A stretch of 64,000 bases of DNA, taken from positions 3,180,636 through 3,244,635 of the forward strand of contig NZ_CP102409.1 in NCBI RefSeq assembly GCF_024628725.1, in the 5' to 3' direction. The notes under the pieces are model-generated. The model was not told the origin of the DNA, ran no database searches, and saw only the letters and a list, made by a program, of their open reading frames with translations. How positions within the stretch are numbered: the first letter of the stretch is position 1; every line of letters begins with the position of its first letter. This DNA comes from Ruegeria sp. YS9. GTDB lineage: Bacteria > Pseudomonadota > Alphaproteobacteria > Rhodobacterales > Rhodobacteraceae. This document shows positions 1,445-18,891 of the stretch, piece by piece. The position numbers and the translations under genes are program-made.

Positions 1445-1482
1445 ACGCCCCGCGTTCCTCCAGACGCGGGGCGTTGTGTTTT
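1445..1482 (+). terminator. Rho-independent terminator of hsp20
   Basis: Ten-base arms ACGCCCCGCG / CGCGGGGCGT (1445-1454 and 1465-1474) close a ten-base loop and are followed by TTGTGTTTT. A second GC-rich stem (GCGGCAG / CTGCCGC) sits just before it at 1411-1439. The hairpin lies inside the possible longer N-terminus of the next gene, which supports the later start chosen for that gene. Confidence 0.85.
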
Positions 1483-1538
1483 GGGCATGCGCGAAAATTG
1501 GTTCCCAGCAAATTATCCGCCTGATAGTCTTGGGTATT

Positions 1539-3764
1539 ATGGAAAGCCGACCAAAACGTCGACTAGCAGCTATCCTGGCAGCCGACATCGCCGGCTACTC
1601 AAGATTGGTTGGTCTGGACGAAGAAGGTACCATCGCAAGACTTCGCCTGATCCGCAGCGAAGTCATAGAGCCGGCGATCGCCCGGCATTCAGGACGTATC
1701 GCGAACACTGCTGGAGACAGCTTTGTGATCGAATTTCGCAGCGCCGTCGATGCGGTTCATGCCGCCGTGGAAATTCAGGCCGAGCTTGCAAAGAGAAATG
1801 CGGGAACCGATCAGGATAGCGTCATAACGCTTCGGATCGGACTGAATGTCGGCGATGTGGTTTCGAACGGGGATGACATCCTTGGCGACGGCGTGAACGT
1901 TGCCGCGCGGCTCGAGGCACTGGCAGATCCCGGTGGTATCATTGTTTCACAATCCATCGTCGATTATGCGCGCAACAAAGTGCCCTATGGTTTTGCCCCG
2001 ATCGGGCCACAGAACGTCAAGAACATCGCAGACCCGGTTCAGGCCTTTCGCGTGGAAGCGGAAACTTTGCCTTCCCCGCGAAAAAGCCGCACGAAGAGGA
2101 AATCCCGCTGGCTGCCACTGTCGGCTCTATTGGTGATGTTGGCGGTCGTTGGGCTTTTTCTGACGAAACCGTGGAAGACCGGCCAATTGCGTGCCTCAGA
2201 GGCGCAGATGGTTTACCCCTTGCCGGATCTACCTTCCATCGCAGTGTTGCCGATTGCGAATTACACCGATGGCGCGTCCAAGGACATGCTGATCAACGGT
2301 ATCTCTGAGGATTTGATCACGGACTTGTCCCGAATATCCGGTTTGTTCGTCATCGCGGGCAACTCATCCTTCGCATACCGCGACAGAAACATAGATATCG
2401 CACGTTTTGCCGAAGAGCTGGGGGTTCGATACGTCGTTGACGGCAGCGTGCGACGTGCGGATGAAGATTTCCGGATCAATATTCGCCTGACCGACACATT
2501 GAGCGGGCGATTGATCTGGGCGGACAGGTTTGATGGCGCGATTGATGACATCTTTGAAGTGCAGAAAACCATTGTTCTCGCAATTGCTCAGGAGCTGGAT
2601 CTTCCACTCGACCCTCAAAGCCGGCAGGCCATCGAAAGCGTGGAAACCCAGACCATTGCAGCACGCGAAGCCTTCCAACGCGGGTGGGAGTTGTATTCGC
2701 AGTTCAACGAACAGGACAACCTTGCGGCAATTCCCCATTTTGAAAAGGCCGTGGAACTGGACCCGGATTATGGGCGTGCCTGGGCGACGCTTGCCCTGGC
2801 GCATTTGCGACCGCACATCTTTCATCATTGGAATGGGTTCGCAGGGTCAGGCGCGCAAATGCACATTGGCCTGTTTTTCAAGTATTACCGGGATGTGATA
2901 GAGCAGGACACCGCCCTGGTGCACGTTATCCGGGCTATTGTCAGTCTCAGTCTTCCGGATTGGAACAGTGCCGAAGGGGTAGGCCGGGGGACGGAAGACG
3001 CCAGACGAGAAGCGGCGAAAGCCATTGCGCTGCAACCCAGTGACCCCGAGGCGCATCTGACGATGGGATGGGCCTTGATTGCAGCGGGTGAGCCCGAGGA
3101 AGGACTGGCCTTTGTGCAGGCCGCGACCCGGCTGGATCCCAATTATCCCAGCCACTACGCGCTGTTTGAAGCGGCGGCTCTGTACGCATTGAATGACCTG
3201 ACGGGCGCAGCAGATGTGATCGAGAAAGAGTTGAACAGAAACCCTCAGGCAACCGAGCTGATGCCATTTGCAGCCTCGGTTCTGGCCCTGAATGGAGATC
3301 GCCGTGCGGGCAGGGCCATCATCGACCGATGGCAAAAGGGCAAGCATGCCGGTGTCATACAGGACGCTGTTCAGAATTACCTTTTTATCATCCACTGGGT
3401 TGGAGAAAACCAGCATCTGAACGCCCGGCTGAACGATGGGCTTCGTCTGGCGGCGTTGCCTCCGGAAAAAACCATAGCAAGTCTGAGGGCAGATCTGTCA
3501 CGGGGGGATGCCAAAGATCAGAGGACGGCAGCCCAATCACTGGCCCTGTTTGGTCCCGAGGCAGAGCCAGCGGTGCCGGAATTGATCGCGCTTCTTGAAA
3601 GCCCGTCGGTGTTTGTCCGGAAAGAGGCAGCAATTGCATTGGGGAAAATAGGTGGCGCGGCGTCGTCTGCATTGCCCGCGCTGGAAGCGATGGTGGACGG
3701 TTCGTTGCAGGGAAAGTTCGCGGCCCGCGCAATCGAACAAATCCGCGACAAATCCGCAGACTAG
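1539..3764 (+). CDS. Class III adenylate cyclase fused to TolB-like, TPR and HEAT modules
   Basis: Predicted membrane-anchored signalling protein of 741 residues. Residues about 1-175 form a class III nucleotide cyclase domain: the first metal-binding Asp is in AADIAGYSR and the second region is GDDILGDGVNVAARL. One transmembrane helix (about 189-210) follows. Next come a TolB-amino-terminal-like segment beginning SIAVLPI (about 235-350), tetratricopeptide-like helices (about 385-620) and a C-terminal pair of HEAT/PBS-lyase-like repeats (PEAEPAVPELIALLES...). The catalytic domain precedes the membrane helix, so the C-terminal part should be periplasmic. The ATG at 1539 is preferred over GTG 1476, which lies within the preceding terminator. 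The cyclase family is clear; signal and partners are unknown. Confidence 0.88.
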   Translation: MESRPKRRLAAILAADIAGYSRLVGLDEEGTIARLRLIRSEVIEPAIARHSGRIANTAGDSFVIEFRSAVDAVHAAVEIQAELAKRNAGTDQDSVITLRIGLNVGDVVSNGDDILGDGVNVAARLEALADPGGIIVSQSIVDYARNKVPYGFAPIGPQNVKNIADPVQAFRVEAETLPSPRKSRTKRKSRWLPLSALLVMLAVVGLFLTKPWKTGQLRASEAQMVYPLPDLPSIAVLPIANYTDGASKDMLINGISEDLITDLSRISGLFVIAGNSSFAYRDRNIDIARFAEELGVRYVVDGSVRRADEDFRINIRLTDTLSGRLIWADRFDGAIDDIFEVQKTIVLAIAQELDLPLDPQSRQAIESVETQTIAAREAFQRGWELYSQFNEQDNLAAIPHFEKAVELDPDYGRAWATLALAHLRPHIFHHWNGFAGSGAQMHIGLFFKYYRDVIEQDTALVHVIRAIVSLSLPDWNSAEGVGRGTEDARREAAKAIALQPSDPEAHLTMGWALIAAGEPEEGLAFVQAATRLDPNYPSHYALFEAAALYALNDLTGAADVIEKELNRNPQATELMPFAASVLALNGDRRAGRAIIDRWQKGKHAGVIQDAVQNYLFIIHWVGENQHLNARLNDGLRLAALPPEKTIASLRADLSRGDAKDQRTAAQSLALFGPEAEPAVPELIALLESPSVFVRKEAAIALGKIGGAASSALPALEAMVDGSLQGKFAARAIEQIRDKSAD

Positions 3765-5635: not shown

Positions 5636-6715
5636 ATGTCGAACCAGCAATTCGAAGCGTTGATAGAAGAGACTCAAGCCAAAGTGCGCGAAAGCCAGTC
5701 TCAGATCGAAGGGCTGACTTCGCGCATTGAAGCGGCCCGCGCCAAGATCGGCACCGCCGAGGCGGATATCGACATCGAAAACGCCACGCTCGAAGATGTG
5801 CACGCCCATACCGAGGTGATGAATGCCAATATCGCCGAGCTGATCATGGGGCTGGACGACGTCACCAGCGCCTTTTCCAAAGATTTTGACGAGATGCGTT
5901 CGAAAACCGGGTGGGAGTCGTTTGTCGGCATCTTCTCGAAAGGTAAATCCGAGTCGATGCGGCAGGAGCGGATGCGCACCGCCAATATCGATGACAAGCT
6001 GCAAGACCTGATCGCCAAATCCGACGTGATCGTGAAGCTGCTGCAAGGGCAACTGGCCGTGCTGGAAGAACAGCGCGTCAAGGTCGAGGACAACCTGACC
6101 GTCACGCTGGACGACCGTGAGGCGACCGTGGCCGAGTTGGAGGCGCTGCGCGCCGAAATTCAGGGCATGGACCCGACGATCATCACGCTGGAGAACAAGA
6201 TCAGCGTCGAACAGGACGCCGCCGCGCGGACCCAGCTGGAAACCGAACTGGCCGAGCTGAACAAGCAATACAACGCCAAGGTTCAGGACGAGCAGGTCAA
6301 ACTGGCCAAAAGCCAAACGCTGGAGCGCTATATTGAAAAGGGCAAGACTTGGGTCGATTCACTGCAAAACCAGGCGGCGACGCAGATGGTTCTGATCAAC
6401 AAGCTACAGACAGACACGCAGCAGCGCGTGGTGCTGTATGACGCCCTGACCAAATCGCTGAAAACCGCGCAGCAGCAGGACGTGGCCCACCGCATCAACG
6501 AGATCGGTGTGCATACGGATCAAGAGGCGCAGACGGCGATGGCCGCCATCGGCACCGCGACCAACCAGAAGATGGCCGACATGCTTGAGGCGCATGAGGA
6601 CCACATGGTCTTTGCCCGCGACGTGCTGGAGAAAAAAGCCAAGGCGGATGAACGCTTTGCCCGCCGTTTTGCCTCGATTGTCGAGAAGCATGACAAGAAT
6701 TTGTATGGGGGTTGA
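5636..6715 (+). CDS. Coiled-coil protein, first gene of the AAA+ cluster
   Basis: Soluble 359-residue protein with no signal peptide or membrane helix, almost entirely heptad-rich helix with high Glu, Gln, Ala and Lys. Coiled coil covers about residues 5-60 and 130-345, interrupted by a short Gly/Trp-containing stretch (GWESFVGIFSKGKSES, about 92-107). The second half (many helices with Q/E/L heptads, then LYDALTKSLKTAQQQDV) faintly recalls the TelA toxic-anion-resistance fold, but I cannot establish homology. An AGAGGA ribosome site precedes the ATG. It opens a same-strand run of eight genes to 12978, so it is probably a scaffold or substrate of the AAA+ protein encoded downstream. Function unknown. 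Confidence 0.8.
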   Translation: MSNQQFEALIEETQAKVRESQSQIEGLTSRIEAARAKIGTAEADIDIENATLEDVHAHTEVMNANIAELIMGLDDVTSAFSKDFDEMRSKTGWESFVGIFSKGKSESMRQERMRTANIDDKLQDLIAKSDVIVKLLQGQLAVLEEQRVKVEDNLTVTLDDREATVAELEALRAEIQGMDPTIITLENKISVEQDAAARTQLETELAELNKQYNAKVQDEQVKLAKSQTLERYIEKGKTWVDSLQNQAATQMVLINKLQTDTQQRVVLYDALTKSLKTAQQQDVAHRINEIGVHTDQEAQTAMAAIGTATNQKMADMLEAHEDHMVFARDVLEKKAKADERFARRFASIVEKHDKNLYGG

Positions 6716-6717
6716 GC

Positions 6718-7140
6718 TTGGACGAAGTGAGCTTGAGCCGATCTGAACAAACCAGTTGGACGCTCTATCGCTGGTTAGCTGGCAACGTCGGTCTACTGTT
6801 TGTAATGATGTATACGATGGGCTGGTACTTTCTTTTCTCAGCTCCTTTGTTGGCGTTGTTCGGACTTTGCGCAACGCTTGTGTATTTCCTTACGGGTAAC
6901 GGCGAAGGCGCGCTTGGGATCACTGCATTATTGTTTGCTCCATTGTCGATAACATTCCTCGTATGGCAAATGATCAGGTTTATTGGGCCGACATTTGTAG
7001 GATTATTTCGGCGATGTGGGTTTTTCGGTCAGTACTTGCACCGTTTTTCTCCGAGCGACCTTCTTGAAATGGCGCGCACCCATCGACAGATTGCGTCTGC
7101 CGACCTTCGCAGGCTATGGGACAAAGCTGTTGGACACTGA
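6718..7140 (+). CDS. Small A/T-rich integral membrane protein
   Basis: About 140 residues with three to four hydrophobic helices in the first 90 residues (around LLFVMMYTMGWYFLF, LLALFGLCATLVYFL and ITALLFAPLSITFLV), then a basic cytosolic tail. The TTG at 6718 is chosen because GGGGG at 6707-6711 gives it normal ribosome-site spacing; TTG 6712 (overlapping the previous stop) and GTG 6727 are alternatives. Base composition is visibly more A/T-rich than both neighbours. The 3' end overlaps the probable start of the next gene. No family recognised. Confidence 0.6.
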   Translation: MDEVSLSRSEQTSWTLYRWLAGNVGLLFVMMYTMGWYFLFSAPLLALFGLCATLVYFLTGNGEGALGITALLFAPLSITFLVWQMIRFIGPTFVGLFRRCGFFGQYLHRFSPSDLLEMARTHRQIASADLRRLWDKAVGH

Positions 7141-8251
7141 TCCCATCCAAGACCATGTTGGCCTGACCGACACCTTCGCCTCGCGCCGGTATTTCCGGAA
7201 ATTTGAGGTGATCACCGTCCACCTCCTGCGCGTGGCTGCGACGATGGAGGCCGAGGGCGCGATCAGCAAGCAAGAAGTGCGGATCGTGTCGCGCTACCTC
7301 TCGGGGTTGCTCTACACCTTCCGCGCGCTCTCCATGAAGTATCTGTTGGTCGGGCGCGATACGGGGCGGTTCTTTGGCAGTCTCGCCATGGACAAGCGCG
7401 ATAGCGGCTTTCCGGTGGCGGCCGAGTTGCTGACCATGGCCAATGACGCGCAGCAGGCGCAGGTGCATCTGGCAAACATGCCCTTGGAAGACGACCTGAA
7501 AACCGACATGGTGCGAACGATCATTGGCGATCAGGAAATCCCCACCAAGCTGCAATTCGCTCTCTCCCAAAGGCTCTATTACGAAGAACTGTTAAAAGGT
7601 CAGCTGTTCTGGGCCCGTAATGATCCCGAGTGCCACTGGATCGGAAATGAGGGGGACCGACGCAAATTCATGATCCACTGGGCGGTCTATGACAGCCAGA
7701 TCAACCTGCCCGTCATCTATCTGATGCAGCTTGAGGACAGCGGCAAAACTGCCCTGCCCAAGGATCAGCGCCGCTGGCCCGAGGTTCAGGCGCATCTGAT
7801 GGCGCAAGCGCTGGGTGGGTTGAAACTGGTGACGATTGCCAAAGGCTTCGATCAGGATTTCGACGACCTGCATCCCAAACACCTGCGCCGCATCCATGTG
7901 GGTCCGATGTATTCCTCGGCCTATACCGAGCAATCCGGCCCCCTGCGGCAGGTGCTGGAGGACGCGCAATCTCCGCAAGGTCAGGATTGGGCACTGGCCT
8001 GGACCACCGAAGAACTGGAAAGCGAAGAGGTGATCGAAGAGCGCTCCGGGTGGTTCTCGACCGTTGAGCGCGAGATTTTTGCGCTGGACCCGTTCGGCGG
8101 GCAAGGGGCCGAGACCGGGGCCACACGCACTCAGCGCTCGATCATCCTGCCCCAGCGTCCGTTTCAGGTGCTGGCCGAGCGCAACCCGCCGGGTTTTGCC
8201 GATGTGCGCAAGTTCGTCGTCAGCAAGACCGGGCAGGTGTTGAGATATTGA
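7130..8251 (+). CDS. Uncharacterised protein of the AAA+ cluster
   Basis: About 373 residues, soluble, no signal peptide and no recognisable domain. The N-terminal part is helical and rich in charged residues (FRKFEVITVHLLRVAATMEAEG...). The middle holds aromatic-rich stretches (ARNDPECHWIGNEGDRRKFMIHW) and the C-terminus is Pro/Arg-rich, ending VSKTGQVLRY. The start is uncertain: TTG 7130 follows GGGA at a suitable distance and overlaps the upstream stop, while GTG 7016 would give 411 residues but lies inside the preceding gene and has a poor ribosome site. Codon use is ordinary high-GC, unlike the A/T-rich gene before it. Placed between the coiled-coil and ATPase genes, it probably works with them. 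Confidence 0.72.
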   Translation: MDTDPIQDHVGLTDTFASRRYFRKFEVITVHLLRVAATMEAEGAISKQEVRIVSRYLSGLLYTFRALSMKYLLVGRDTGRFFGSLAMDKRDSGFPVAAELLTMANDAQQAQVHLANMPLEDDLKTDMVRTIIGDQEIPTKLQFALSQRLYYEELLKGQLFWARNDPECHWIGNEGDRRKFMIHWAVYDSQINLPVIYLMQLEDSGKTALPKDQRRWPEVQAHLMAQALGGLKLVTIAKGFDQDFDDLHPKHLRRIHVGPMYSSAYTEQSGPLRQVLEDAQSPQGQDWALAWTTEELESEEVIEERSGWFSTVEREIFALDPFGGQGAETGATRTQRSIILPQRPFQVLAERNPPGFADVRKFVVSKTGQVLRY

Positions 8252-8257
8252 ATTTTT

Positions 8258-8296
8258 CGCCTCCGGCGGGAGTATTTTTGAAAAGATGAAGCAAGG
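8258..8296 (+). repeat. Intergenic repeat copy A (hairpin + TATTTTTG...GATGAAGCA)
   Basis: A small stem (CGCC-TCC-GGCG) is followed by GGAGTATTTTTG and then AAAAGATGAAGCAAGG. The second half matches a segment at 58854-58880 almost base for base (TATTTTTG, four variable bases, GATGAAGCA). Both copies follow the 3' end of a gene, so this looks like a family of terminator-associated intergenic elements. Here it lies between two genes of the same cluster, so it may reduce rather than stop read-through. Confidence 0.5.
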
Positions 8297-8308
8297 GCGG
8301 TTTTTGAG

Positions 8309-10240
8309 ATGAGTTTGACGTCAGATCAGATGGAATTGCGCGAAGACGACATTCGCCAGCATTATCCCGCAGCAACCGCCTTGCTGAACGGGTTCGAACA
8401 CGCGCCGCGGATCGCCAAACCCGTTGAGGCCGCCGTCGAACGCTCTCCGGGTGTGTCAACGGCACGGCGGTTTCGGTCGACGACCCCGGGGTTGGTGACG
8501 CGGCGTACGGTGCGCGCGGATGGGGTACATCTGGTCGAACGGATCGAGGCGTCGGATGATGGCGATGCATTGGTCTCGCCACCTCAGGCCACAACGCAGC
8601 AGGCCATTCGTCGGGCCATTGCCATTGCGCTGGCCGTGGCTGAAGCTTTTGCCGAACAAACCCCGCTGGCCGATCTGAAGCGGGCGAATCTGGCCGGGGA
8701 TCTGCCCGCCGCCCGCAAGACCGAATTCTCGGAATTGCTGACCGCTGAAGCTTTGATCACGCTACATACGTTCGGCAACGCGCTTGCCTATCTGATGTCT
8801 TCGCATCTTGGCGAAATCACGGTTGATCTCGGTGAGATCGAAGAGGTTCTGACCGACAATGGCCAGCTTGCCCTGCATGGCGCGCTGTGGGAGCTGGATC
8901 AGGTGCTGGCCAAACACGCCCCCGACGACGCCCGTCTGATCGCGGCCACCAGCGCCTATGCCGAACAACTGATGGAGAAAGCCGCCCTGCGTGCAGGGTC
9001 GGCAGGCCATCTGGCCCCGTTCCAGAACGCCGCCTGGCATATCGAGGCAGACGATCTGACGATCCGGGGGTTTGAGCCGGCCTCAAAAGCCAAATCCACC
9101 ACCCTGACCATGACGTTCAAGAAGCCGAACGAGGTGGTCGGCAACCATATCGCCAAATATCAGGCCATGAAGCTGGCCAAGATGGTGATGGCCTATGATT
9201 TCGACCGCCGCCTGAACCCGTTTGCCGAGCTTGGCGGGTTCATCTTTACCTTCATGGGCGACGGCAAACCGGGCACCGGTAAGACCACCCTGATCCAGAT
9301 GATGGCCGGGCTGATCAACGACTATTGCCAGAACGCGGGCTATCCGTTCCGCTATCAGAACCTGAGCACCGACAATATCGACAGCTATCAGGGCAAGTCC
9401 GGTCAAAACGCCAAGGCGTTTATCAACACGATCATCGACCCTTCGGTTATCGGGTTCGGCACCATCGACGATATCGACCAGCTGGCGGGCAAACGCGGCG
9501 ACCGGCAGTCGTCAGCCGGTCAACTGGAAATCACCGCCGTGCTGATGGAGAGCTTTGCGGGCGCCAACACCGTCGTGCGCGGCAACTGCACCTTTGGCAT
9601 GTTCTCGAACTACCCCGAGAATGTGGACGACGCCCTGCGTCAACGGGCGGGTGCGCGGTTTCTGGTGGACGGGCCACAGACGCGCGAGGATTACATCGAC
9701 ATCCTACACCTGCTGATGGGCCGCAACCATGACATCCCGCTGGGTGAGCACGAGGCCTATGCCGCGCAGGAAATCAAAAAGGCTGTCGCCGCCAGTTTCG
9801 AAAGCCACTCCCGCCCGCATGAGGACGCTCTGCTTCAGGTCTATGACCGGGTTTCGGCTGAGATCGGCCAGATGGACACCATCGCCAAGCTGGGCACCTA
9901 CCTCAAGGCGATCCAGCAGGCGGATGAGCGCTTTACCGGCCGCGCGATCAAGAACATCACCGACGCGGTCAAAGTCCGCGCGATGGATTTCGAACTGCCC
10001 GACGAGTGGATGGAAAACCCCGACCTGTTCCTGTTCCGCGACTACGACACCAAGAAAGCGATGATCGAGGACCTGCGCCAGCCGATCACGGTTGAGATGG
10101 TGATGCAGGAAATCAACCGCTACGCCGACAGCGAGTTCCGCTATGCCGACAAGAGCGACGAGGTCGCCATCGAGAACGCGGTGCGCGAGATGGGCCGGAT
10201 GGAAGAGGCCAAGCGGCGGTATCTGGAGGGGAAGGGGTGA
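8309..10240 (+). CDS. AAA+ ATPase, classical clade type, central gene of cluster
   Basis: A 643-residue cytosolic ATPase. Residues 1-300 are a helical domain I do not recognise. The AAA+ module follows: Walker A GDGKPGTGKTT (about 318-328), a pore-loop-like SYQGKSGQNAKAF (about 355-367), Walker B region IGFGTIDDID (about 379-388), a sensor-1 Asn in MFSNYPENVDDAL and an arginine-finger-like RQRAGARF (about 445-452). A helical C-terminal lid follows. The order and spacing resemble the FtsH/p97/Vps4-type remodelling ATPases, but Walker B ends Asp-Asp instead of Asp-Glu. A ring-forming protein or membrane-complex remodeller is inferred. The stop overlaps the GTG start of the next membrane protein. 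Confidence 0.88.
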   Translation: MSLTSDQMELREDDIRQHYPAATALLNGFEHAPRIAKPVEAAVERSPGVSTARRFRSTTPGLVTRRTVRADGVHLVERIEASDDGDALVSPPQATTQQAIRRAIAIALAVAEAFAEQTPLADLKRANLAGDLPAARKTEFSELLTAEALITLHTFGNALAYLMSSHLGEITVDLGEIEEVLTDNGQLALHGALWELDQVLAKHAPDDARLIAATSAYAEQLMEKAALRAGSAGHLAPFQNAAWHIEADDLTIRGFEPASKAKSTTLTMTFKKPNEVVGNHIAKYQAMKLAKMVMAYDFDRRLNPFAELGGFIFTFMGDGKPGTGKTTLIQMMAGLINDYCQNAGYPFRYQNLSTDNIDSYQGKSGQNAKAFINTIIDPSVIGFGTIDDIDQLAGKRGDRQSSAGQLEITAVLMESFAGANTVVRGNCTFGMFSNYPENVDDALRQRAGARFLVDGPQTREDYIDILHLLMGRNHDIPLGEHEAYAAQEIKKAVAASFESHSRPHEDALLQVYDRVSAEIGQMDTIAKLGTYLKAIQQADERFTGRAIKNITDAVKVRAMDFELPDEWMENPDLFLFRDYDTKKAMIEDLRQPITVEMVMQEINRYADSEFRYADKSDEVAIENAVREMGRMEEAKRRYLEGKG

Positions 10241-10569
10241 ATTATTTGATCGCCATAGGTCTGCCTCTACTGCTGAGCACTGTGGTTGCTGTTCCAATAG
10301 GGTTCCGAGCCTATCGAACGTCTCGCGCGGCTAAAGAAAGCGGAAAGGAATGGTTGCTTCTATTCTTAGCATATGGCGCGGCTTGCACTGTTCTTACAAT
10401 TCTTGCCAGCTACACTTTGATGGATTTTTTTGTCGACCGATTTGCCGTGGACGTTGGTAACGCAAATCCCGCAGATGTTATGGTCTATTTTCAGCTACAG
10501 TTCTGGTTGATTGCAATACCCCTTGGTTTCGCGATCATTTTTGCATTTGCAAAAGGACTGAGAGCATGA
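10237..10569 (+). CDS. Small A/T-rich membrane protein overlapping the AAA+ gene
   Basis: 110 residues with three hydrophobic helices (LIAIGLPLLLSTVVAVPIGF, LLLFLAYGAACTVLTILASY and the segment around FWLIAIPLGFAIIFAFA). The GTG start overlaps the ATPase stop codon (GTGA), which indicates translational coupling. Like the membrane gene at 6718-7140, it is clearly richer in A and T than its neighbours. No family recognised; a membrane partner of the ATPase is a reasonable inference from the overlap. Confidence 0.62.
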   Translation: MNYLIAIGLPLLLSTVVAVPIGFRAYRTSRAAKESGKEWLLLFLAYGAACTVLTILASYTLMDFFVDRFAVDVGNANPADVMVYFQLQFWLIAIPLGFAIIFAFAKGLRA

Positions 10570-10611
10570 GTTTCGAATTCATGGAGTACAGGTTTCTTTT
10601 TGAGAGTGATA

Positions 10612-10660
10612 TCGCGGCGCAGCCGCGACGCGCCCGACCCGCCCCCCAGGGCGGGCGCGT
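10612..10660 (+). other. Two strong GC-rich hairpins between cluster genes
   Basis: TCGCGGC-GCA-GCCGCGA (10612-10628) is a perfect stem. It is immediately followed by a second stem of CGCGCCC-type arms around CCCGCCCCCCAGGGCGGG (to 10660). There is no T-run, so this may be a processing or attenuating structure separating the first five genes of the cluster from the last three. Confidence 0.5.
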
Positions 10661-10717
10661 TCAGCACCCACCCTCAGGCCGGGCGCATCGCTACCGTTGC
10701 GCGGGAAGGCAATTGTT

Positions 10718-12055
10718 ATGATCCGCCTCATCGAAAAAGGCCTGATGTTCGGCAATCTCGTCCACATCTCCAGCCCGGCTCTGGTCGAACGGTATAACCG
10801 CGCGTTGCAGCATCTGGCGGGCAAGACCACGGCGCTGACGGATTTTCATGTCGATATCTCGGGCTATTCGCCGGAGGTGGGGATTGAGCTGGACGACCCG
10901 CTCTACCTCAACCCCAACGGGGTCAACCGGCAGTTCATCCTGCTGACGACCGAACAAAAACGCGCGCCTTTGCTGAACGTCAAATTCTCGACCTCGCGCG
11001 ATATTCTGCGAGACTTCATCGAGATGAACGAGGCGCAGCTGTTCGCCCTGACCGCCACCGATGCGGTGGCCGGAGAGTTGGTGAACTCGGTCTTCAAACT
11101 CACCACACCGCGCGACCTGCTGAACCTGCGCAAGATCGAGATTGAGGCCGACACAACAGGCGGCACCCTGCGCAAGGCACAGCAACTGGCAGGCATGGTC
11201 GAACGGTTCAAAACCAAAGAGGACGCCTGGTTCGATGATGTGCTGATCGCCAAGATGATCGAAACCGCCAGGGAAACCGGTGACGTCACCCGAAACCCGG
11301 TGCGCCTGCGTCATACGGATTTTGAGCAGCGAAACTTCTGGACGGCACATTTCGGTGGGCTTTATCTTTTTCCCGACGTTGATCACCCGGCAGCGATTTG
11401 CATGGGTGAAAAGCCTGACGACCTGCCGATCAAATACACGTTTGATCCGTCGCAGCGGAACCAGATTGCCAAATTTCTGGACTACAACGATCTGGTTGAG
11501 CCCATCGTCAAGGCGCGCGGCGTGGATGCGGCCGCGATCCTGCAACAGAAGATGGATTTCCTGACCGTCGATGCGGCGGCGGATGCGGATGTTGACCTGA
11601 CCGGGCTGGATCGCAGCGACATGCGGCGGTTGGCACGGAACCACGCGGATCGCCTGCCGCAGGCCTATCACGGGCTTGCGCAACTGCTGCGCTGGGCAAG
11701 TGATGGGGGTCCGTGGCCGCGCATCACTTCGGACCATCCGGCCTATTTCTACACGCTACGCGCCGCCGATACGCCGAACCGCGATCTGGTGAACATGCTG
11801 CTTTCCGAATTGGCCCCGCTGGACCCGCGCCAGATGTTCATCTGCCACAAAGAATTGTTCTACCGAACATATTCGGGCTGGCCCGAGAGCAAGAAGGCCT
11901 ATGTGGCCGACTTCCTTGCGCGCGAATATCAGGTGGACAAACAAGGCGCCCGCGCCGCCCTGTTCGGACATGAGCTGGATATGAGCGGCGACGATCGCGT
12001 CAGCGATGACATAATTGCCCGGGTCGGTCCGTGGGGTTCGGTGAGGAAAGGTTGA
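10718..12055 (+). CDS. Uncharacterised 445-residue protein of the AAA+ cluster
   Basis: Soluble protein with no signal peptide or membrane helix and no domain I can name. It begins MIRLIEKGLMFGNLVHI and is of mixed alpha/beta character, with a long charged helical region (around residues 140-200), a middle part with Asp/Pro-rich loops, and a C-terminus ending in DDIIARVGPWGSVRKG. ATG 10718 is chosen because GGGAAGG lies just upstream; TTG 10697 would add seven residues. Its stop is one base from the ATG of the following membrane protein, so the three last genes of the cluster form one translational unit. Confidence 0.78.
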   Translation: MIRLIEKGLMFGNLVHISSPALVERYNRALQHLAGKTTALTDFHVDISGYSPEVGIELDDPLYLNPNGVNRQFILLTTEQKRAPLLNVKFSTSRDILRDFIEMNEAQLFALTATDAVAGELVNSVFKLTTPRDLLNLRKIEIEADTTGGTLRKAQQLAGMVERFKTKEDAWFDDVLIAKMIETARETGDVTRNPVRLRHTDFEQRNFWTAHFGGLYLFPDVDHPAAICMGEKPDDLPIKYTFDPSQRNQIAKFLDYNDLVEPIVKARGVDAAAILQQKMDFLTVDAAADADVDLTGLDRSDMRRLARNHADRLPQAYHGLAQLLRWASDGGPWPRITSDHPAYFYTLRAADTPNRDLVNMLLSELAPLDPRQMFICHKELFYRTYSGWPESKKAYVADFLAREYQVDKQGARAALFGHELDMSGDDRVSDDIIARVGPWGSVRKG

Positions 12056-12056
12056 A

Positions 12057-12323
12057 ATGATTGGATTATTGCGCCTTTTGCTGATCTTGCTGGTGATCCA
12101 GACGATTGCCTATGTCGGGCTGTCTTTCTATTCGCGCGGCATACGTCGGCGCAAATTGGAGAACTGGTGGGACGAAAAGGGCAAGACGGGCAACAAAGAA
12201 GCCTTTGTCGAACGCGGATTGCATGTGTATGACAACTCGTTTCGGCGTAAACTGATCCTAGGTGTCTATATCGTGCCGTGGGTGGCGATTGGCGCGCTGA
12301 TCTACATCGTGAATTACATGTGA
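12057..12323 (+). CDS. Small two-helix membrane protein
   Basis: 88 residues: an N-terminal membrane helix (LLRLLLILLVIQTIAYVGLSF), a charged cytosolic loop with Arg/Lys clusters (GIRRRKLENWWDEKGKTG) and a second helix near the C-terminus (LGVYIVPWVAIGALIYIVNYM). One base separates its ATG from the preceding stop, and ten bases separate it from the DUF1523 gene. Function unknown; it probably forms a membrane complex with its neighbours. Confidence 0.78.
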   Translation: MIGLLRLLLILLVIQTIAYVGLSFYSRGIRRRKLENWWDEKGKTGNKEAFVERGLHVYDNSFRRKLILGVYIVPWVAIGALIYIVNYM

Positions 12324-12333
12324 GGGTTTAGGC

Positions 12334-12978
12334 ATGGCCTATGTGAAATGGGCGTTCATTATCATTTTCTGGGGCACGATTGCCGTGATCCTGCAATATT
12401 CTCTGCCCCAGCATGACATTGTGCGCATCGTCAACACCTATGAAGAACGGCAGGATCTGAACGACTGGACCCGGATCTTCTGGTCAGAGCCGGAAGATCA
12501 ATCCACCAGCCTGTCCAACCGGGATGTGCAGTTCATTCAGGCGGTGCGGGCCAATGGAAAACCCATCGTGTACCGAAATGAGGATACCGGCTGGGGATGG
12601 CCGCCGTATTTCAAGTTCGACACGGCGAACCTGTATACCGAGGCCAATGATGCGAAATCGACCAAGGAGAACCCGAAATGGGTGGTCGTGACCCATTACG
12701 GGTGGCGCAATGAATTCATGTCGATCTTTCCCAACGCCATTTTCATCAAGCATGTGGATGGCCCGGATGTGCGGATCATTCCATGGTTCAATATCATCTT
12801 CCTGACGATCTTTGCGGCGTTCGTTTGGGCGGTATGGGTGCGTTGGCGCAGGTTCCGGCAATCCCGGATCGATCCGATGATCGAAAACGTTGAAGACGGC
12901 CTGTATGCGGCCGGTGATGCCATTGAAGAGCGGCGCAACAGGTTTCGCCGCTGGCTGGACAGCTGGAAATCGAAATAG
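12334..12978 (+). CDS. DUF1523 family membrane-anchored protein
   Basis: 214 residues. The start MAYVKWAFIIIFWGTIAVILQYSLPQHDIVRI, with PQHDIVRI(V/T)NTYEER right after the first membrane helix, is the recognisable signature of DUF1523, a family of unknown function common in Rhodobacteraceae and also seen in a phage. The central 120 residues should be extracytoplasmic and are Trp/Tyr-rich. A second helix (IIPWFNIIFLTIFAAFVWAVWV, about 147-168) is followed by a basic, coiled cytosolic tail ending in KSK. Last gene of the cluster. Confidence 0.82.
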   Translation: MAYVKWAFIIIFWGTIAVILQYSLPQHDIVRIVNTYEERQDLNDWTRIFWSEPEDQSTSLSNRDVQFIQAVRANGKPIVYRNEDTGWGWPPYFKFDTANLYTEANDAKSTKENPKWVVVTHYGWRNEFMSIFPNAIFIKHVDGPDVRIIPWFNIIFLTIFAAFVWAVWVRWRRFRQSRIDPMIENVEDGLYAAGDAIEERRNRFRRWLDSWKSK

Positions 12979-13032: not shown

Positions 13033-14127
13033 TCACCTGACGATGAATTCCGCATGCAGCGCGCCTGCTGCCTTGATCGTTTTCAGAATGTCGATCATGT
13101 CCTGAGGCGAGACCCCAAGCGCGTTCAGGCCTGCGACAACCTCGGACAACGTGGTGGCCTCGGGGATTTCGGCGAGGCCGGTTCCCTCTTCTTCTTCGAT
13201 CCCTGCGATTGTCCGTGGCACGACCACTGTTTCACCTCTGGCGAACGGGTTGGGCTGCACTGCAATCGGTGCTTCCTGAACCGTCAGAGTCAGGTTGCCT
13301 TGAGACACCGCAACACGCGAAATTCGGACCTCTTGCCCCATGACAATGGTGCCAGAGCGCTGATCGACAACAACGCGCGCTTTCGATTCCGGTTCAACCA
13401 GAATGTTTTCAATGCGCCCAATGGCATGGGCTGTCGAAACCGCCTGAGTCGCCGCGACGTTGAGCTCAACCGTGCCGGAATCCCGCATAATCGCCACGGC
13501 TCTGTTGAACTCGGTGTTTATCGCGGTTTCGATGCGCGCGGCTGTGGTGAAGTCTGGCTCTCTGAGTGCGAGGCGCATCTGAGTGAGAGTTGACAAGTCG
13601 AAGTCAATTTCACGCTCGACCCTCGCGCCGGATGGGATCACGCCCGAAGTTGGCACCCCGCGCACGACTGAAGCTGCCTCTCCTTCAGCCGAAACGCCGC
13701 CCGCAAGGATTGTGCCCTGAGCGACCGCATAGATTTGGCCGTCGGCCGCGTTCAGCGGGGTCATGATCAGAGTGCCCCCCAAGAGGCTGCTGGAATCGCC
13801 TATGGCTGAAACCGTTACATCGATTTGACCACCCACCCGTGCAAAAGGCGGAAGGCTGGCCGTGACCAATACCGCTGCCACGTTTTTGGGCCGGAAATCC
13901 TCACCGGTGACGTTGACGCCAAGACGTTCGAGGATGTTGGACATGATTTCTTCGGTGAAGGGCGCGTTGCGTAATCCATCACCGGTTCCGTTCAAGCCGA
14001 CCACCAGGCCATAACCCACCAGATCGTTGCCCCGTACACCGTCAAAATCCACGAGGTCCTTGAGACGGATTGTCCCTGCCCAAGCCATGCCGGGAAGGAG
14101 AAGCAGGAGAAGTATCAGCGCCCTCAT
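13033..14127 (-). CDS. flgI: Flagellar P-ring protein
   Basis: Forms the periplasmic P-ring around the rod in the peptidoglycan layer. 364 residues with a cleavable signal peptide (MRALILLLLLLPGMAWA) followed by the hallmark TIRLKDLVDFDGVRGNDLVGYGLVVGLNGTGD. Length is normal for FlgI. Its ATG overlaps the flgL stop (ATGA), so it is the last gene of a flgE-flgK-flgL-flgI run. The matching L-ring gene flgH and chaperone gene flgA lie in the divergent operon at 23.2-24.4 kb. Confidence 0.97.
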   Translation of the reverse strand: MRALILLLLLLPGMAWAGTIRLKDLVDFDGVRGNDLVGYGLVVGLNGTGDGLRNAPFTEEIMSNILERLGVNVTGEDFRPKNVAAVLVTASLPPFARVGGQIDVTVSAIGDSSSLLGGTLIMTPLNAADGQIYAVAQGTILAGGVSAEGEAASVVRGVPTSGVIPSGARVEREIDFDLSTLTQMRLALREPDFTTAARIETAINTEFNRAVAIMRDSGTVELNVAATQAVSTAHAIGRIENILVEPESKARVVVDQRSGTIVMGQEVRISRVAVSQGNLTLTVQEAPIAVQPNPFARGETVVVPRTIAGIEEEEGTGLAEIPEATTLSEVVAGLNALGVSPQDMIDILKTIKAAGALHAEFIVR

Positions 14128-15131
14128 CTCAGAAAGTTCACCAGTGAAAGGTTCGCATTGCGAACGGTTACGGAATACAGGCTTTCCAATTGAAATTGCA
14201 CCGTTTGCAGTTTTGCTGCCGTCTCATAAGGATCGGCCGCGATCAGTTCGTTCCGGCTGAATTCCAAGCTGGTCCGGGCCGAGGAATTGCGTGTTGCAGC
14301 CTCTTCGATGCGGGCTTCGGCCGCTCCGACTTTTGCCCGGAGTTTTACGGTGGCATCCTGTGCGTTGGCCAGATCGACCCCTAACTGCGTGAACAATGCG
14401 GTGCGCTGATCGGGCGAAAGTGCCAATGCGCTGTCGGTGGCCAGCGCCGCAACGGCGACATCCCTGAGTGCGGCCTTGAACGCCGGATCCGTTGCCGTGA
14501 TCGGCAGCGTGACGCTTTCGTTTTCCGAAATCTGCATCGGAGACAGTGTGCTGCTTGACCCCTGATAAATCACGGCGTCGAAACCGGCCGGGTCATTGAA
14601 CCAGTTTTCTGCCGCCAGCCTGATATCAGCGACCGTCGCAAGCCCCGTCAACTGCGACTTCAGCGCCGTCAAAAGATCGTTCGAAGATTGCAGAGGCGAC
14701 ACATCGGTGGCGGTGCCGGAAAACAGGCTGCGCCCTCCCACGCGTGTGTTCAGTGCCGAGATCATCGTGTCCAGCTCGTTTTTCGCCTGTTGGGACGCTT
14801 GTTCATGATTGACGGGCTGATTGGCGGTTCCGTAGGCCAGCAAAGACGCGGTCATGTCTCCGACCGAATCTCCGAAGGTTTTCAGGCTCAGTTGCATGGT
14901 GTCGGTGAACAGGGCGGCTTCGGACGTTGCGATGCCAAAGGCGTCGAGTCTGGCGAGGCTGCGGTCGAGATCCAGAATTTGCGAATAATCCCCGCCAAGC
15001 CGACCCGAGACGTCCTGTACCCGCCCGGTGGACATTTCATAAGAGAGGGTTTCGATCTGGGTTTTGATATCTGTTGCGCGGGTTCGCAAGGTCATTCCTC
15101 GCGCCAAATCGCCGATAGAAGTGATGTTCAT
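14124..15131 (-). CDS. flgL: Flagellar hook-filament junction protein FlgL
   Basis: Second junction protein (HAP3) between hook and flagellin filament. 335 residues; flagellin-like N-terminal helix (MNITSIGDLARGMTLRTRATDIKTQI) and C-terminal helix (ETAAKLQTVQFQLESLYSVTVRNANLSLVNFL). ATG 15131 is preferred over GTG 15137 because GAGG upstream is correctly spaced only for the former. It begins directly after the flgK stop. No flagellin gene is nearby. Confidence 0.94.
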   Translation of the reverse strand: MNITSIGDLARGMTLRTRATDIKTQIETLSYEMSTGRVQDVSGRLGGDYSQILDLDRSLARLDAFGIATSEAALFTDTMQLSLKTFGDSVGDMTASLLAYGTANQPVNHEQASQQAKNELDTMISALNTRVGGRSLFSGTATDVSPLQSSNDLLTALKSQLTGLATVADIRLAAENWFNDPAGFDAVIYQGSSSTLSPMQISENESVTLPITATDPAFKAALRDVAVAALATDSALALSPDQRTALFTQLGVDLANAQDATVKLRAKVGAAEARIEEAATRNSSARTSLEFSRNELIAADPYETAAKLQTVQFQLESLYSVTVRNANLSLVNFLR

Positions 15132-15133
15132 GG

Positions 15134-16585
15134 TCACAACCTCAGAAGAGTTTCCATAAGCTCGTCAACAACCGAGATGACACGGGCGTTCGCGGCATAG
15201 GTCTGTTCGACCTGCATGAGCCGTTGCAGTTCCTGATCGGTATCCACGCCCTGCGCGGCCTCGATCTGCGCCATTTGCTGCTGGAAGCTGTTTGCAAAAG
15301 TCTTGCGTTGATCCGCGGCATGGGCGTGCGCGCCCGCTTTCGACAACAGGGCCTCGGTCAACTCGGCAGCGCGCATGTTTCCCGTGCCGAACAGCCCGCC
15401 GGGTACCGGGCGCGCGTCGTTCAATATGTTCCCGAACGCGCGCAGTTGAGCCGCCTGCCCGGGGTCACCCGGTGTTGCGGCACCCAGACCCGCGCGCAGT
15501 TTCCAACTGTCCCCGCCATTGTCAGGGTCGACCGTCGAATTGAGTGAGATCCGTGATGCAAGTCCGACAACAGATGCAGGATTGAATCGGTTGCCGTCGT
15601 CGGTGAACAGACCGGGATCTGTCGCAAGAGCCGTCGAATCCAAACCGGGCGTTTCAAATCGTTCAATCAGGTCCCTTGCAACCGTGTCGAGCTGAACCTG
15701 TGCCTCGACTGCCAAATCGTCGCGGATGGTGAACTGCGCCATCAGTGCCCCGCCGCGGATTTGAGCGTTACCTGCGCTTGTCCGCACCGGGTTGCCGTTC
15801 ATCTCCAGACCGGACAACAGACCATTTGCCACGGTCATGTGAGGCTTTGTTTCACCGGTCGTGGAAAAAGTGAACTCCGAGGCCGTGCCTTCCAGCAGGA
15901 TCAGCCCGCCCTCCGAGTACAGGGATACCTGATCATTGGCGCGGGGCACGACATTGACCGGGATCAGGGTATTGACCTGGTCGATCAGGACATGCCGCTG
16001 GTCCAGCAGGGCACCGATGTCACCGCCAGAGTTTTGAATGGCAGGAATCTTGGCGTTCAGGTCTTCGATATCTTTCAGAGTCTGATTCAGGGTTTCGATC
16101 TGAGCGCCAATTTTCCGATCAGCATCCGAGCGTGCCTGGCGTACGCCTTCTGATGCTGCGTTCAGCTCGTTGGTCAGATCGCGGGCCGAGCGCGCAACCT
16201 GATCCAGCCGTTCGATCGAGTCAGGCAGACTGGCCGCCGTGATGAAGGCGTTTTCCAATGAGGACAGACGGGTAGACAGCGAAGGGCCGTCATCAAGAGA
16301 CCCCACCAGATGTTCGAACCGAGCGTGAAAATCTGAAACGTCCGACCGAAAGGCGAGTTCAGCATCAGAGGAACGTCTGTTGGCTGTCAAAACCGGATCC
16401 TGATGCCGGATCACGCCCACGGTGCGTACGCCATTTCCGGATATAGGGCTTGTTGCAAGCTCGAGGGACCGGCGCGCATAGCCGGGGGTCAGCGCATTCG
16501 CGATGTTTCCGGACACCACAGCGGCCCCGCGACTGGCCGCAGTCAGCCCGCCCAGTGCGTTATTGAGTGCTGTCGACATGTTCAT
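15134..16585 (-). CDS. flgK: Flagellar hook-associated protein 1
   Basis: First junction protein between hook and filament, secreted by the flagellar export apparatus. 483 residues. N-terminus NMSTALNNALGGLTAASRGAAVVSGNIANALTPGYARR is the flagellar rod/hook-type N-terminal domain. The C-terminus (QRLMQVEQTYAANARVISVVDELMETLLRL) is the matching axial-protein C-terminal domain. The ATG at 16585 follows AAAGGAG with seven-base spacing. Confidence 0.96.
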   Translation of the reverse strand: MNMSTALNNALGGLTAASRGAAVVSGNIANALTPGYARRSLELATSPISGNGVRTVGVIRHQDPVLTANRRSSDAELAFRSDVSDFHARFEHLVGSLDDGPSLSTRLSSLENAFITAASLPDSIERLDQVARSARDLTNELNAASEGVRQARSDADRKIGAQIETLNQTLKDIEDLNAKIPAIQNSGGDIGALLDQRHVLIDQVNTLIPVNVVPRANDQVSLYSEGGLILLEGTASEFTFSTTGETKPHMTVANGLLSGLEMNGNPVRTSAGNAQIRGGALMAQFTIRDDLAVEAQVQLDTVARDLIERFETPGLDSTALATDPGLFTDDGNRFNPASVVGLASRISLNSTVDPDNGGDSWKLRAGLGAATPGDPGQAAQLRAFGNILNDARPVPGGLFGTGNMRAAELTEALLSKAGAHAHAADQRKTFANSFQQQMAQIEAAQGVDTDQELQRLMQVEQTYAANARVISVVDELMETLLRL

Positions 16586-16617
16586 GAGGCCGCTCCTTTC
16601 TTTGGGTCAGAGCCGGA

Positions 16618-17913
16618 TTAACGCTTCAGGTTTGTCGTTTCCTGCAACATCTCGTCCACCGTCTGGATCACCGTGGCGCTGGAAGAGTAAGCACGTTGCG
16701 TCTGAATCAATGAGGTCAGCTCGGTCGCTACATCCGTGGTGGATTCCTCACGCGCGAAAGAAACAAGATCCCCGGTCGGGCCTTCGCCCGCATTCCAAAG
16801 AAAGAACGTACCGCTTTCACGGGAAGGCGCGTAAGTTTGGCTGTCCAGCGCGGTCAAACCGTTGGGATTGGGGACATCTGCCAGCGGAATCTGATACATT
16901 CGGCGGCTGACGCCGGTGTCGTACAACGCATAGACATATCCGTTCTCATCAACCTGGACGCTGGTCATTGTGCCAACGGCAGAACCATCTCGTGTGATCG
17001 AAACGGGCGCGAACGTATCGGACAATTGGGTTATACCATCTGCATCCCCGATCAGGCCAATATTTACCTCCATCGGTCCGCCGGCGACGTTGACCATGAC
17101 ACTGCCCGTTGCTGGATCATAAGCACCGCCTGAAACAGCTGTGACGCTGGCCAGAGTGCCACCTGCCGTTCGGTTGTCGGTGAATGTCAGCGTGTATTCA
17201 CCGATGATCGCGCCACCCGAGGCCGAGTCACGCAAGACCATGGTCCATTCGTTGCTGCTGCCGGTTGCGGGAACAGTTGGAACCAACTGGATATCGACGC
17301 TTTCAGACTTGCCGAGATTGTCGAAATACTCAACTGACAAAGGTTGAATGTCGCCCGGCGCGCCCGCATCTGTCGCCGTGGCCGGAAGGTTCATACGCAG
17401 TTTCATTTCCGTGGTTGGGGAACCCGACAGCTGATTCACGCTGAGCTGAATGGGTTCAAGCGCGGCGGGTGTGTCGCGCGAAACCGGTGGAATAGTGCCA
17501 TCAGGTGCCGCCCGCCACCCCAGAAGAACAAGACCGGATTCGGTAACCAAATACCCCTCGTCGTTGGTGCGGAATGACCCGGTTGTTGTCAGCAGCATCT
17601 CGTTCGAGCTATTCCCGATCTGCGAACTGGGGCGCACAGGCAACATGCCGCGCCCGCGAACTGCCAGATCGGTTGAGTTGCTGGTCGTGACCAGGGGCCC
17701 GCGTTGATCAATCATGCGCTGGCTTGTCGTCCGCACGCCGCCTGCCGAATAGCTGCCACCCTGGCCCGACGTGACCATTGAATGAAAATCCGTCTCGACC
17801 CGTTTATACCCATAGGTCGAAGAGTTCGCGATGTTGTCGGAAATCGTCGCCAACCTGTTGGCATTGGCTTTCAGCGCCGCCACACCGGCATTGAGCGAAG
17901 AGGAAATGGTCAT
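16618..17913 (-). CDS. flgE: Flagellar hook protein
   Basis: Builds the flexible hook. 431 residues, with the N-terminal motif MTISSSLNAGVAALKANANRLATISDNIANSSTYGYKR and the C-terminal motif ELTSLIQTQRAYSSSATVIQTVDEMLQETTNLKR, plus a Gly/Thr/Ser-rich middle typical of the hook D1/D2 domains. ATG 17913 with an AAGGGC ribosome site is chosen over an in-frame GTG that would add 12 residues. A near-perfect CtrA box lies 54 bases upstream of the ATG. Confidence 0.96.
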   Translation of the reverse strand: MTISSSLNAGVAALKANANRLATISDNIANSSTYGYKRVETDFHSMVTSGQGGSYSAGGVRTTSQRMIDQRGPLVTTSNSTDLAVRGRGMLPVRPSSQIGNSSNEMLLTTTGSFRTNDEGYLVTESGLVLLGWRAAPDGTIPPVSRDTPAALEPIQLSVNQLSGSPTTEMKLRMNLPATATDAGAPGDIQPLSVEYFDNLGKSESVDIQLVPTVPATGSSNEWTMVLRDSASGGAIIGEYTLTFTDNRTAGGTLASVTAVSGGAYDPATGSVMVNVAGGPMEVNIGLIGDADGITQLSDTFAPVSITRDGSAVGTMTSVQVDENGYVYALYDTGVSRRMYQIPLADVPNPNGLTALDSQTYAPSRESGTFFLWNAGEGPTGDLVSFAREESTTDVATELTSLIQTQRAYSSSATVIQTVDEMLQETTNLKR

Positions 17914-17967
17914 GGGTGCGCCCTTCTGTTGCGTCCGTCTTTGATGCAACAGGTAACGCGCTGCCCC

Positions 17968-17982
17968 TTAACAGCGCGCTAA
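17968..17982 (-). promoter_or_regulatory. CtrA-type box upstream of flgE
   Basis: TTAACAGCGCGCTAA fits the alphaproteobacterial CtrA site TTAA-N7-TTAA at seven of eight positions. It lies in the short motB-flgE gap, 54 bases before the flgE ATG, close to the same distance found upstream of motB and fliI. Confidence 0.6.
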
Positions 17983-18004
17983 CATGTAAAATACGCTCTA
18001 TCAT

Positions 18005-18844: not shown

Positions 18845-18891
18845 CTCCACCACCTTTTTATCACCCGACTATCGGGATAGCAGCGCAGGTC

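Follow-up and report, generated by a model that had tools for sequence, protein, structure and literature searches.

An AAA+/coiled-coil/DUF6638 operon with exchangeable cargo genes in Ruegeria and its relatives: a possible chromosomal conflict platform

When a run of mostly unnamed genes is found in a bacterial chromosome, an obvious question arises: which of these genes form the machine, and which are only lodged within it? The window considered here, a stretch of 64,000 nucleotides (nt) from Ruegeria sp. YS9 (contig NZ_CP102409.1, positions 3,180,636 to 3,244,635), contains eight + strand open reading frames (ORFs) in one run, here denoted P1 to P8, with start-stop overlaps at three junctions (P1/P2 at 6712-6715, P2/P3 at 7130-7140 and P4/P5 at 10237-10240) and a spacing of 1 nt between P6 and P7. 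An initial annotation took them for a conserved eight-gene cluster that includes an AAA+ ATPase, a coiled-coil protein and four membrane partners. The eight ORFs and several overlaps that it reported are real, and the run is not due to chance, since P1-P3-P4-P6-P7-P8 are found on one strand and in the same order in 51 other loci. A conserved unit of eight genes can, however, be ruled out: P2 and P5 vary between loci, and the DUF1523 protein P8 is common without the system, being present in 130 of the 149 genomes in our sample of the family. We argue that P1, P3, P4 and P6 are an old core, that P2 and P5 are replaceable cargo, and that the locus may well be, with about even chances in our judgement, a chromosomal conflict platform with exchangeable effectors, the defence role being read from the cargo.

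The variable genes occupy defined places. In the window, P2 (6712..7140, 142 amino acids (aa), about two transmembrane (TM) segments) lies between the coiled-coil protein P1 (5636..6715, 359 aa) and P3 (7130..8251, 373 aa from the start at 7130), and P5 (10237..10569, 110 aa, about three TM segments) lies between the classical AAA+ ATPase P4 (8309..10240, 643 aa) and the DUF6638 protein P6 (10718..12055, 445 aa from the start at 10718). The P1-P3 gap is referred to below as slot A, the P4-P6 gap as slot B, and the P3-P4 gap, empty in the window (8252..8308), as slot C. Across 117 distinct loci (seven of the 124 that have P1, P3, P4 and P6 were removed as identical in P4), the gap reaches 180 nt or more in 78 loci at slot A, in 108 at slot B and in 14 at slot C, and in none of 116 at either the P6-P7 or the P7-P8 junction. 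The operon has two frequent insertion slots, A and B, and a rare one, C. The longest ORF fills a median of 101% of slot A, 98% of slot B and 95% of slot C, and the cargo is poorer in G+C than P4 in 67 of 81 A slots and 97 of 110 B slots. The first cargo ORF starts at the preceding stop codon or no more than 15 nt from it in 70 of 80 A slots and 95 of 110 B slots, often with an overlap of start and stop, a count that is favoured by the ORF caller, which takes the first start codon in a span opening 20-23 nt before the slot.

How fast the cargo changes can be judged from a Ruegeria clade of 30 loci (the window, L122-L148, L150 and L188, two metagenome-assembled genomes included; L and G numbers are our handles for loci and genomes, F numbers for cargo families), across which the median DNA identity of P4 is 0.885 by ungapped comparison. 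Pairs of these loci have a cargo family in common in only 27 of 406 cases at slot A and 35 of 435 at slot B, with both slots shared in three pairs. Even the proteins of a shared family differ more between loci than P4 does, in 27 of 27 comparisons for slot A and 39 of 40 for slot B, with median identities of 0.64 and 0.54, respectively, as compared to 0.96 for P4. As to the cargo of the window itself, the sole family partner of P2 (family F32) in the slot clustering is in L194, and that of P5 (F33), 83% identical, is in L127. The 249 ORFs from the 117 distinct loci fall into 35 families present in at least two loci (16 in slot A, 19 in slot B) and 97 found in one locus, some of the latter being spurious ORFs; an earlier clustering, with 266 slot ORFs of at least 55 aa and some genomes counted twice, had given 43 multi-member families. 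None of the 35 recurrent families is mixed between slots; when the slot labels were shuffled 2000 times, 22.4 families were mixed on average and never fewer than 14. P2 and P5 are replaceable cargo, then, and the slots are filled by unrelated, fast-changing genes that start right after P1 or P4.

One could suspect that faulty assembly or ORF calling has produced this variation, inasmuch as many of the loci come from draft contigs and the G+C-rich gaps surely contain some small ORFs that are spurious, such as that of family F11, which spans a G+C-rich palindrome. In addition, the unrelated ORF in the 3.2 kb upstream of P6 in one genome (G237) perhaps results from misassembly. An artefact would not be expected, however, to fill the slots almost exactly, to start right behind the preceding stop codon in most cases, or to yield 35 families that recur between distinct loci, and we consider this explanation highly improbable. 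Palindromes of this sort are found in the window as well: a G+C-rich hairpin resembling repetitive extragenic palindromes (REP-like) occupies 10625..10665 in the P5-P6 gap (match at 10639-10654), and REP-like palindromes also lie just upstream of P6 in several other loci (e.g. L043, L045, L053, L062 and L127).

The route by which cargo moves has left traces in the slots. More than one ORF is present in 45 slots (12 A, 33 B; some of the ORFs are likely spurious), and six of these contain a fragment, or scrap, of a flanking core gene: the P3 start in slot A of L122, L124 and L128, the last 150 nt of P4, including the stop codon, in slot B of L143, and the start of P6 in slot B of L066 and L063. 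The scrap sits between two clear cargo genes in L122, L124, L128 and L143; in L066 and L063 the surrounding ORFs are less clear. The local alignment scores of the scraps (28-120) exceed the null maxima of 12-17 obtained with 300 shuffles each, and the score of the other flanking core gene is not above its null maximum in five of the six slots. In L122, the P3 start and a copy of the P1 end (score 22 against a null maximum of 12) are fused to each other directly, which is what the joining of two cassettes, each with core-gene flanks, would produce. Thus, cargo moves together with parts of the core genes on either side, the outcome that recombination through those genes would have, and its travelling with core flanks would also explain why cargo families stay in one slot.

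Such scraps are reminiscent of contact-dependent growth inhibition (CDI) loci, where displaced (orphan) modules keep core-gene sequence (PMC4927057). The cargo could, accordingly, be viewed as immunity or exclusion proteins of a system for interbacterial competition or self-recognition, with the tandem genes being old immunity genes that have been retained, as in CDI and rearrangement hotspot (Rhs) loci; tandem small membrane proteins with core remnants, clearest in L122, L124, L128 and L143, do resemble the displaced CDI modules described there (PMC4927057), and slot C tends to contain lipoproteins. In CDI and Rhs loci, however, a polymorphic protein bears the toxin, whereas here whole genes, rather than C-terminal domains, are exchanged at two independent slots. 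No polymorphic toxin is seen, P1 and P4 being of near-constant length and conserved to their ends, the operon is without a large exported protein, and sharing of slots A and B coincides in only the three pairs mentioned above, unlike toxin-immunity pairs. We therefore hold this possibility to be improbable, although less so than that of an artefact.

Unlike the cargo, the core genes keep together. Among the 149 genomes of the family sample (132 of them good; presence sets were compared by eye), P4 and P3 share one set of 63 genomes, all of which have the full quartet, and P1 is present in 65 genomes and P6 in 69; for the 132 good genomes, the numbers are 58 for P4, P3 and P1 alike and 61 for P6. 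The suspicion that the genes might occur separately in most genomes does not hold for these four, which co-occur. Seven genomes carry P1 or P6 without the full quartet: in three, the gene lies at a contig edge (G185, G249, G287), two are 73-77% complete (G237, G288), one (G209, 76% complete) retains degenerate pieces of both P1 and P6, and one (G289) has a P6 remnant of 59 positions; in G237, with its unrelated ORF before P6, the absence of P4 is not a contig-edge effect. P1 is 71-92% identical across 27 relatives, and the closest relatives of P4 in the collection of named genomes (at least 80 loci) belong mostly to Ruegeria species, with 94-97% identity among the matches listed. In 20 genomes, the core distances follow those of TelA, a reference gene about 1 Mb away from the locus in G000: the Mantel r is 0.69 for P1, 0.76 for P3, 0.72 for P4 and 0.81 for P6, as compared to 0.54 for P8, with none of 2000 permutations as high in any of the five tests. 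The four genes make up an old core that has, for the most part, been passed on with the chromosome.

P7 (12057..12323, + strand, 88 aa), a membrane protein and partner of P8, and P8 (12334..12978, + strand, 214 aa, about two TM segments by eye) are a module separate from the quartet. P7 adjoins P6 and P8 in all 51 ordered loci, and yet, in 22 loci that have DUF1523 but are without the core, tblastn finds P7 in nine; an aldehyde dehydrogenase gene (at least 67% identity) lies upstream in nine of the 22, indicating that the same chromosomal site exists with and without the quartet. The four membrane partners of the initial annotation are therefore not a fixed set: the constant ones are P7 and P8, and these only in loci of the Rhodobacteraceae type. 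One locus without the core (L114, in G217) has, upstream of DUF1523, an ORF 36-47% identical to the slot-A family F14, which, judging from this similarity, is likely a leftover of a lost operon. Together with the piece of P6 in G289, this ORF indicates that at least some absences of the quartet are losses.

The initial annotation also envisaged a conserved Rhodobacterales system. A multi-gene core is indeed conserved, but that limit proved too narrow. A single-sequence search of 142 genomes of the class gave matches confined to the own family; the P4 profile, in turn, matches 20 of 299 genomes of the phylum, namely ten of the own family, nine others of the class and one (G332) of another class, where two of 369 genomes match. 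This profile search, along with a search of plasmids, rules out a distribution restricted to Rhodobacterales. The locus of G332 (L222) shows the full order P1-P3-P4-P6-P7-P8, with a core 60-76% identical to that of the window (P4 72%) and gaps of 12-141 nt, that is, without cargo-sized gaps; the presence of this six-gene order in another class might reflect transfer between classes. Plasmid records extend the range to Sinorhizobium, Shinella, Rhizobium and Vibrio; the quartet itself is present, in a diverged form, in Sinorhizobium, Shinella and Vibrio, the P1 of the window being 43% identical to that of Sinorhizobium and 40% to that of Vibrio. In Vibrio, the order is P1, P3, P4, DUF6638 and then mfd, with neither P7 or P8 nor cargo found; the two Vibrio records (L218 and L221, V. 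parahaemolyticus and V. vulnificus) are plasmid records of about 0.88-0.94 Mb with proteins about 98% identical. In Sinorhizobium and its relatives, a DUF2333 protein follows P6, and slot B of S. meliloti contains a DUF559 gene, a relative of which is present in four of the eight loci L224-L231 (one genus). One Rhizobium leguminosarum plasmid has a P1 relative adjoining DUF2333 without annotated P3, P4 or P6 neighbours. Finally, in G907 the quartet, in the same order, precedes two other membrane proteins (profile E values for that stretch alone: P1 1e-12, P3 4e-9, P4 3e-69, P6 6e-51). A phage origin of the core was also considered and rejected, as P4 has no match among 50,697 phage records.

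What, then, do the slots contain? By simple hydropathy and motif scans, the longest ORF has at least one predicted TM segment in 70 of 78 A slots and 84 of 108 B slots. Most slot-A products are small and have one to three hydrophobic segments; those of slot B have three to four such segments or are larger; a lipobox-like N-terminus is seen in seven of 14 cases at slot C, in four of 78 at A and five of 108 at B, as compared to seven of 115 shifted-frame ORFs of P4. Slot B has 60 ORFs of at least 150 aa, of which 43 remained at no more than four per family and 37 after six chance-like or extended ones had been dropped. Among these 37, Pfam (E<=0.001) identifies AbiJ_NTD4 in three (all F15), Mrr in two (both F35), and DUF559, putAbiC, DUF3825, DUF2971, a thioredoxin-like domain and HATPase in one each; PADLOC adds, for single members and in part for the same proteins, PDC-S31, mREase_IV (HNH), DrmA-like, AbiP and CARF-HEPN. 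A second scan of 91 mostly short ORFs (89 of 186 under 150 aa plus two longer slot-A ORFs) yielded a Phd/YefM antitoxin, DUF4279 and one marginal match with Pfam, and one marginal match with PADLOC. The cargo related to abortive infection (Abi) and the nucleases belong to general defence families.

By contrast, the three small or medium families followed across genomes are largely special to the site. For family F0, 37 matches were obtained in 34 genomes, and 36 of the 37, judged by eye, lie no more than about 1 kb from a core gene or DUF1523; the four strong matches of F1 are confined to slot B, whereas five weak ones lie elsewhere; and the slot-A family F5 is found in seven of 54 genomes of the same genus, always between P1 and P3. 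Decay of F5 could be discounted: two of its matches were flagged with a stop, which precedes the start codon, so that the genes are open. Two cargo genes gave no match among the 50,697 phage records, and of two cargo genes compared with plasmids, one had two weak partial matches and one had none.

The presence of Abi, restriction-nuclease and HEPN-like cargo lends more weight to conflict, one of the options of the initial annotation, albeit not in the form of an eight-gene system. The anti-phage role is proposed because of the cargo types, their quick replacement and the resemblance to defence loci in which effectors are embedded. The platform, most likely an anti-phage one, would sit at the inner membrane, where P4 would most probably form an AAA+ ring whose target is the coiled-coil P1, P3 and P6 being putative adaptors or sensors. 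The cargo would be interchangeable effectors made beside P1 or P4 on the same, presumably common, transcript, a coupling that is suggested by the start-stop overlaps. Small membrane cargo could keep phages from entering or could depolarise the cell, and enzymes of the HEPN, Abi or restriction type could stop phage replication; rapid replacement of effectors would outpace the counter-measures of phages while the chassis stays constant. A more specific and more tentative proposal, to which we give slightly less than even credence, is that the locus represents a new kind of proteobacterial immune chassis, i.e. a long-kept chromosomal AAA+/coiled-coil/DUF6638 quartet with three slots that tend to different compartments and are independently reloaded by recombination across the adjoining core genes. 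Slot A would then supply inner-membrane proteins, slot B multi-pass proteins or cytosolic Abi and nuclease enzymes, and slot C lipoproteins, so that a population could swap its effectors with the sensing and loading machine unchanged.

Several observations weigh against a defence platform. The core is chromosomal and largely vertical, whereas most defence systems are not inherited with the chromosome in this manner. Three of the 117 loci (L065, L083, L090), as well as those of Vibrio, are without cargo, which implies that the core does something on its own. Most of the small cargo have no match to a known family, so that their role is a guess; the counts of Abi and nuclease cargo stand without a matched control set; and the bias of the ORF caller towards early starts was mentioned above. 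Family F0 lies just upstream of DUF1523 in 12 genomes without P4 (e.g. G143, G166 and G248), which suggests that F0-P7-P8 may be a separate module and that some cargo may serve P7/P8 instead. The matches of the core to PADLOC defence models are weak (P4 to TRIP13, E 6.5e-6; P1 to coiled-coil models, E 0.002). Lastly, the sorting of families by slot may reflect exchange through the flanks alone.

According to the chief rival explanation, the quartet serves the envelope or the stress response as an ordinary machine, in which an AAA+ protein remodels a coiled-coil scaffold and P7/P8 or DUF2333 are the membrane partners. The slots would simply be landing sites that are well expressed and tolerate insertions, so that defence genes and selfish genes can hitch a ride there. 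This would fit a core that is inherited largely with the chromosome, as the correlation with TelA indicates, that persists where cargo is lacking, that often adjoins the same aldehyde dehydrogenase gene, and that is followed by different membrane proteins in rhizobia and in G907. However, neither the sorting of families by slot, unless it arose from exchange through the flanks, nor the strong preference for small membrane proteins is obviously expected of a passenger site, and the absence of P4 from 86 of the 149 family genomes shows that the quartet is dispensable. We regard an envelope or stress machine as rather unlikely, albeit a serious contender. Should the defence reading be true, the slots would provide a pre-sorted natural catalogue of new small membrane effectors, comprising the 35 multi-locus and 97 single-locus families. 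The locus makes it testable how bacteria quickly renew immune effectors without gain or loss of a whole system. Even if the core performs a housekeeping task, the entry of foreign genes, with core flanks, into a conserved operon at fixed, start-stop-coupled slots is cargo exchange that can be counted.

Is the core a variant of something already described? The initial annotation recognised families for DUF1523 and the AAA+ module alone. P1, P2, P3, P5 and P7, indeed, have nothing above the Pfam cut-off, but P6 is a full-length member of DUF6638 (PF20343, 778 bits, profile positions 1-439 of 439). P4 belongs to the AAA family (PF00004, 45.4 bits against a cut-off of 21.2), and its Walker A (317-327), Walker B (TIDDID, 385-390, with DD rather than DE) and arginine-finger region (444-450) are conserved in alignments; P8 matches DUF1523 (PF07509, 240 bits against a cut-off of 23). 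Searches of the eight proteins against NCBIfam, PADLOC and PHROGs gave only weak matches, mostly of the coiled-coil or P-loop type. The predicted model of P3 is confident, with a predicted local distance difference test score (pLDDT) of 91.5, and has no Foldseek match in the PDB at E<=0.001; the model of P6 has a pLDDT of 79.8, and comparison of both models with the PDB gave no telling match. Pfam assigns no function to either DUF6638 or DUF1523, of which P6 and P8 are clear members. In the open literature searched, DUF6638 was not mentioned in any paper and no account of the quartet operon was found; to our knowledge, the quartet has no known function.

Besides the CDI and Rhs loci, three known systems invite comparison. 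In CBASS (cyclic oligonucleotide-based antiphage signalling system) loci with TRIP13 and HORMA proteins, the core, with its AAA+ ATPase, is accompanied by variable membrane or nuclease effectors. P4 is, as said, weakly similar to TRIP13, but PADLOC finds no match to CD-NTase or HORMA models among the eight proteins. In ESCRT-III/PspA systems with a Vps4-type ATPase, a classical AAA ATPase stands beside a soluble coiled-coil protein, along with membrane proteins; however, a search of the PDB with the P1 profile gave no PspA, Vipp1 or ESCRT-III chain at E<=1, and P1 has no match to Pfam PspA at E<=0.01. Comparison of P1 with TelA (PF05816) by hhalign gave a probability of 0.5% over 29 columns with shallow alignments. 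Bacteriophage exclusion (BREX) and related loci have auxiliary or backup nuclease effectors embedded in them and thus resemble the quartet locus in combining a conserved multi-gene core, ATPase included, with effectors lodged within (PMC12839542). They differ in that here the cargo are mostly small membrane proteins and the core tracks the chromosome, and PADLOC detects no BREX core model (PglZ, BrxC, BrxX and others) at E<=1 among the eight proteins. The principle of embedded, exchangeable cargo, therefore, has precedents in BREX-type loci and in CDI modules. The core itself we rate as categorically new, in the sense that it is claimed by no tested family or system, the quartet belonging neither to BREX nor to CDI loci.

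The surroundings of the operon in the window deserve a brief mention. Convergent to it, at 13033-18853, lie genes that look, from their sequences, flgI-, flgL-, flgK- and flgE-like, along with one for a MotB-like protein. A flagellar link of the operon was rejected, since among 80 loci (up to 20 kb each) flgI was found only in L042, from the same genus. On the other side, an ORF of 762 aa at 1476-3764 appears, by eye, to join an adenylate-cyclase domain to tetratricopeptide (TPR) and HEAT-like repeats.

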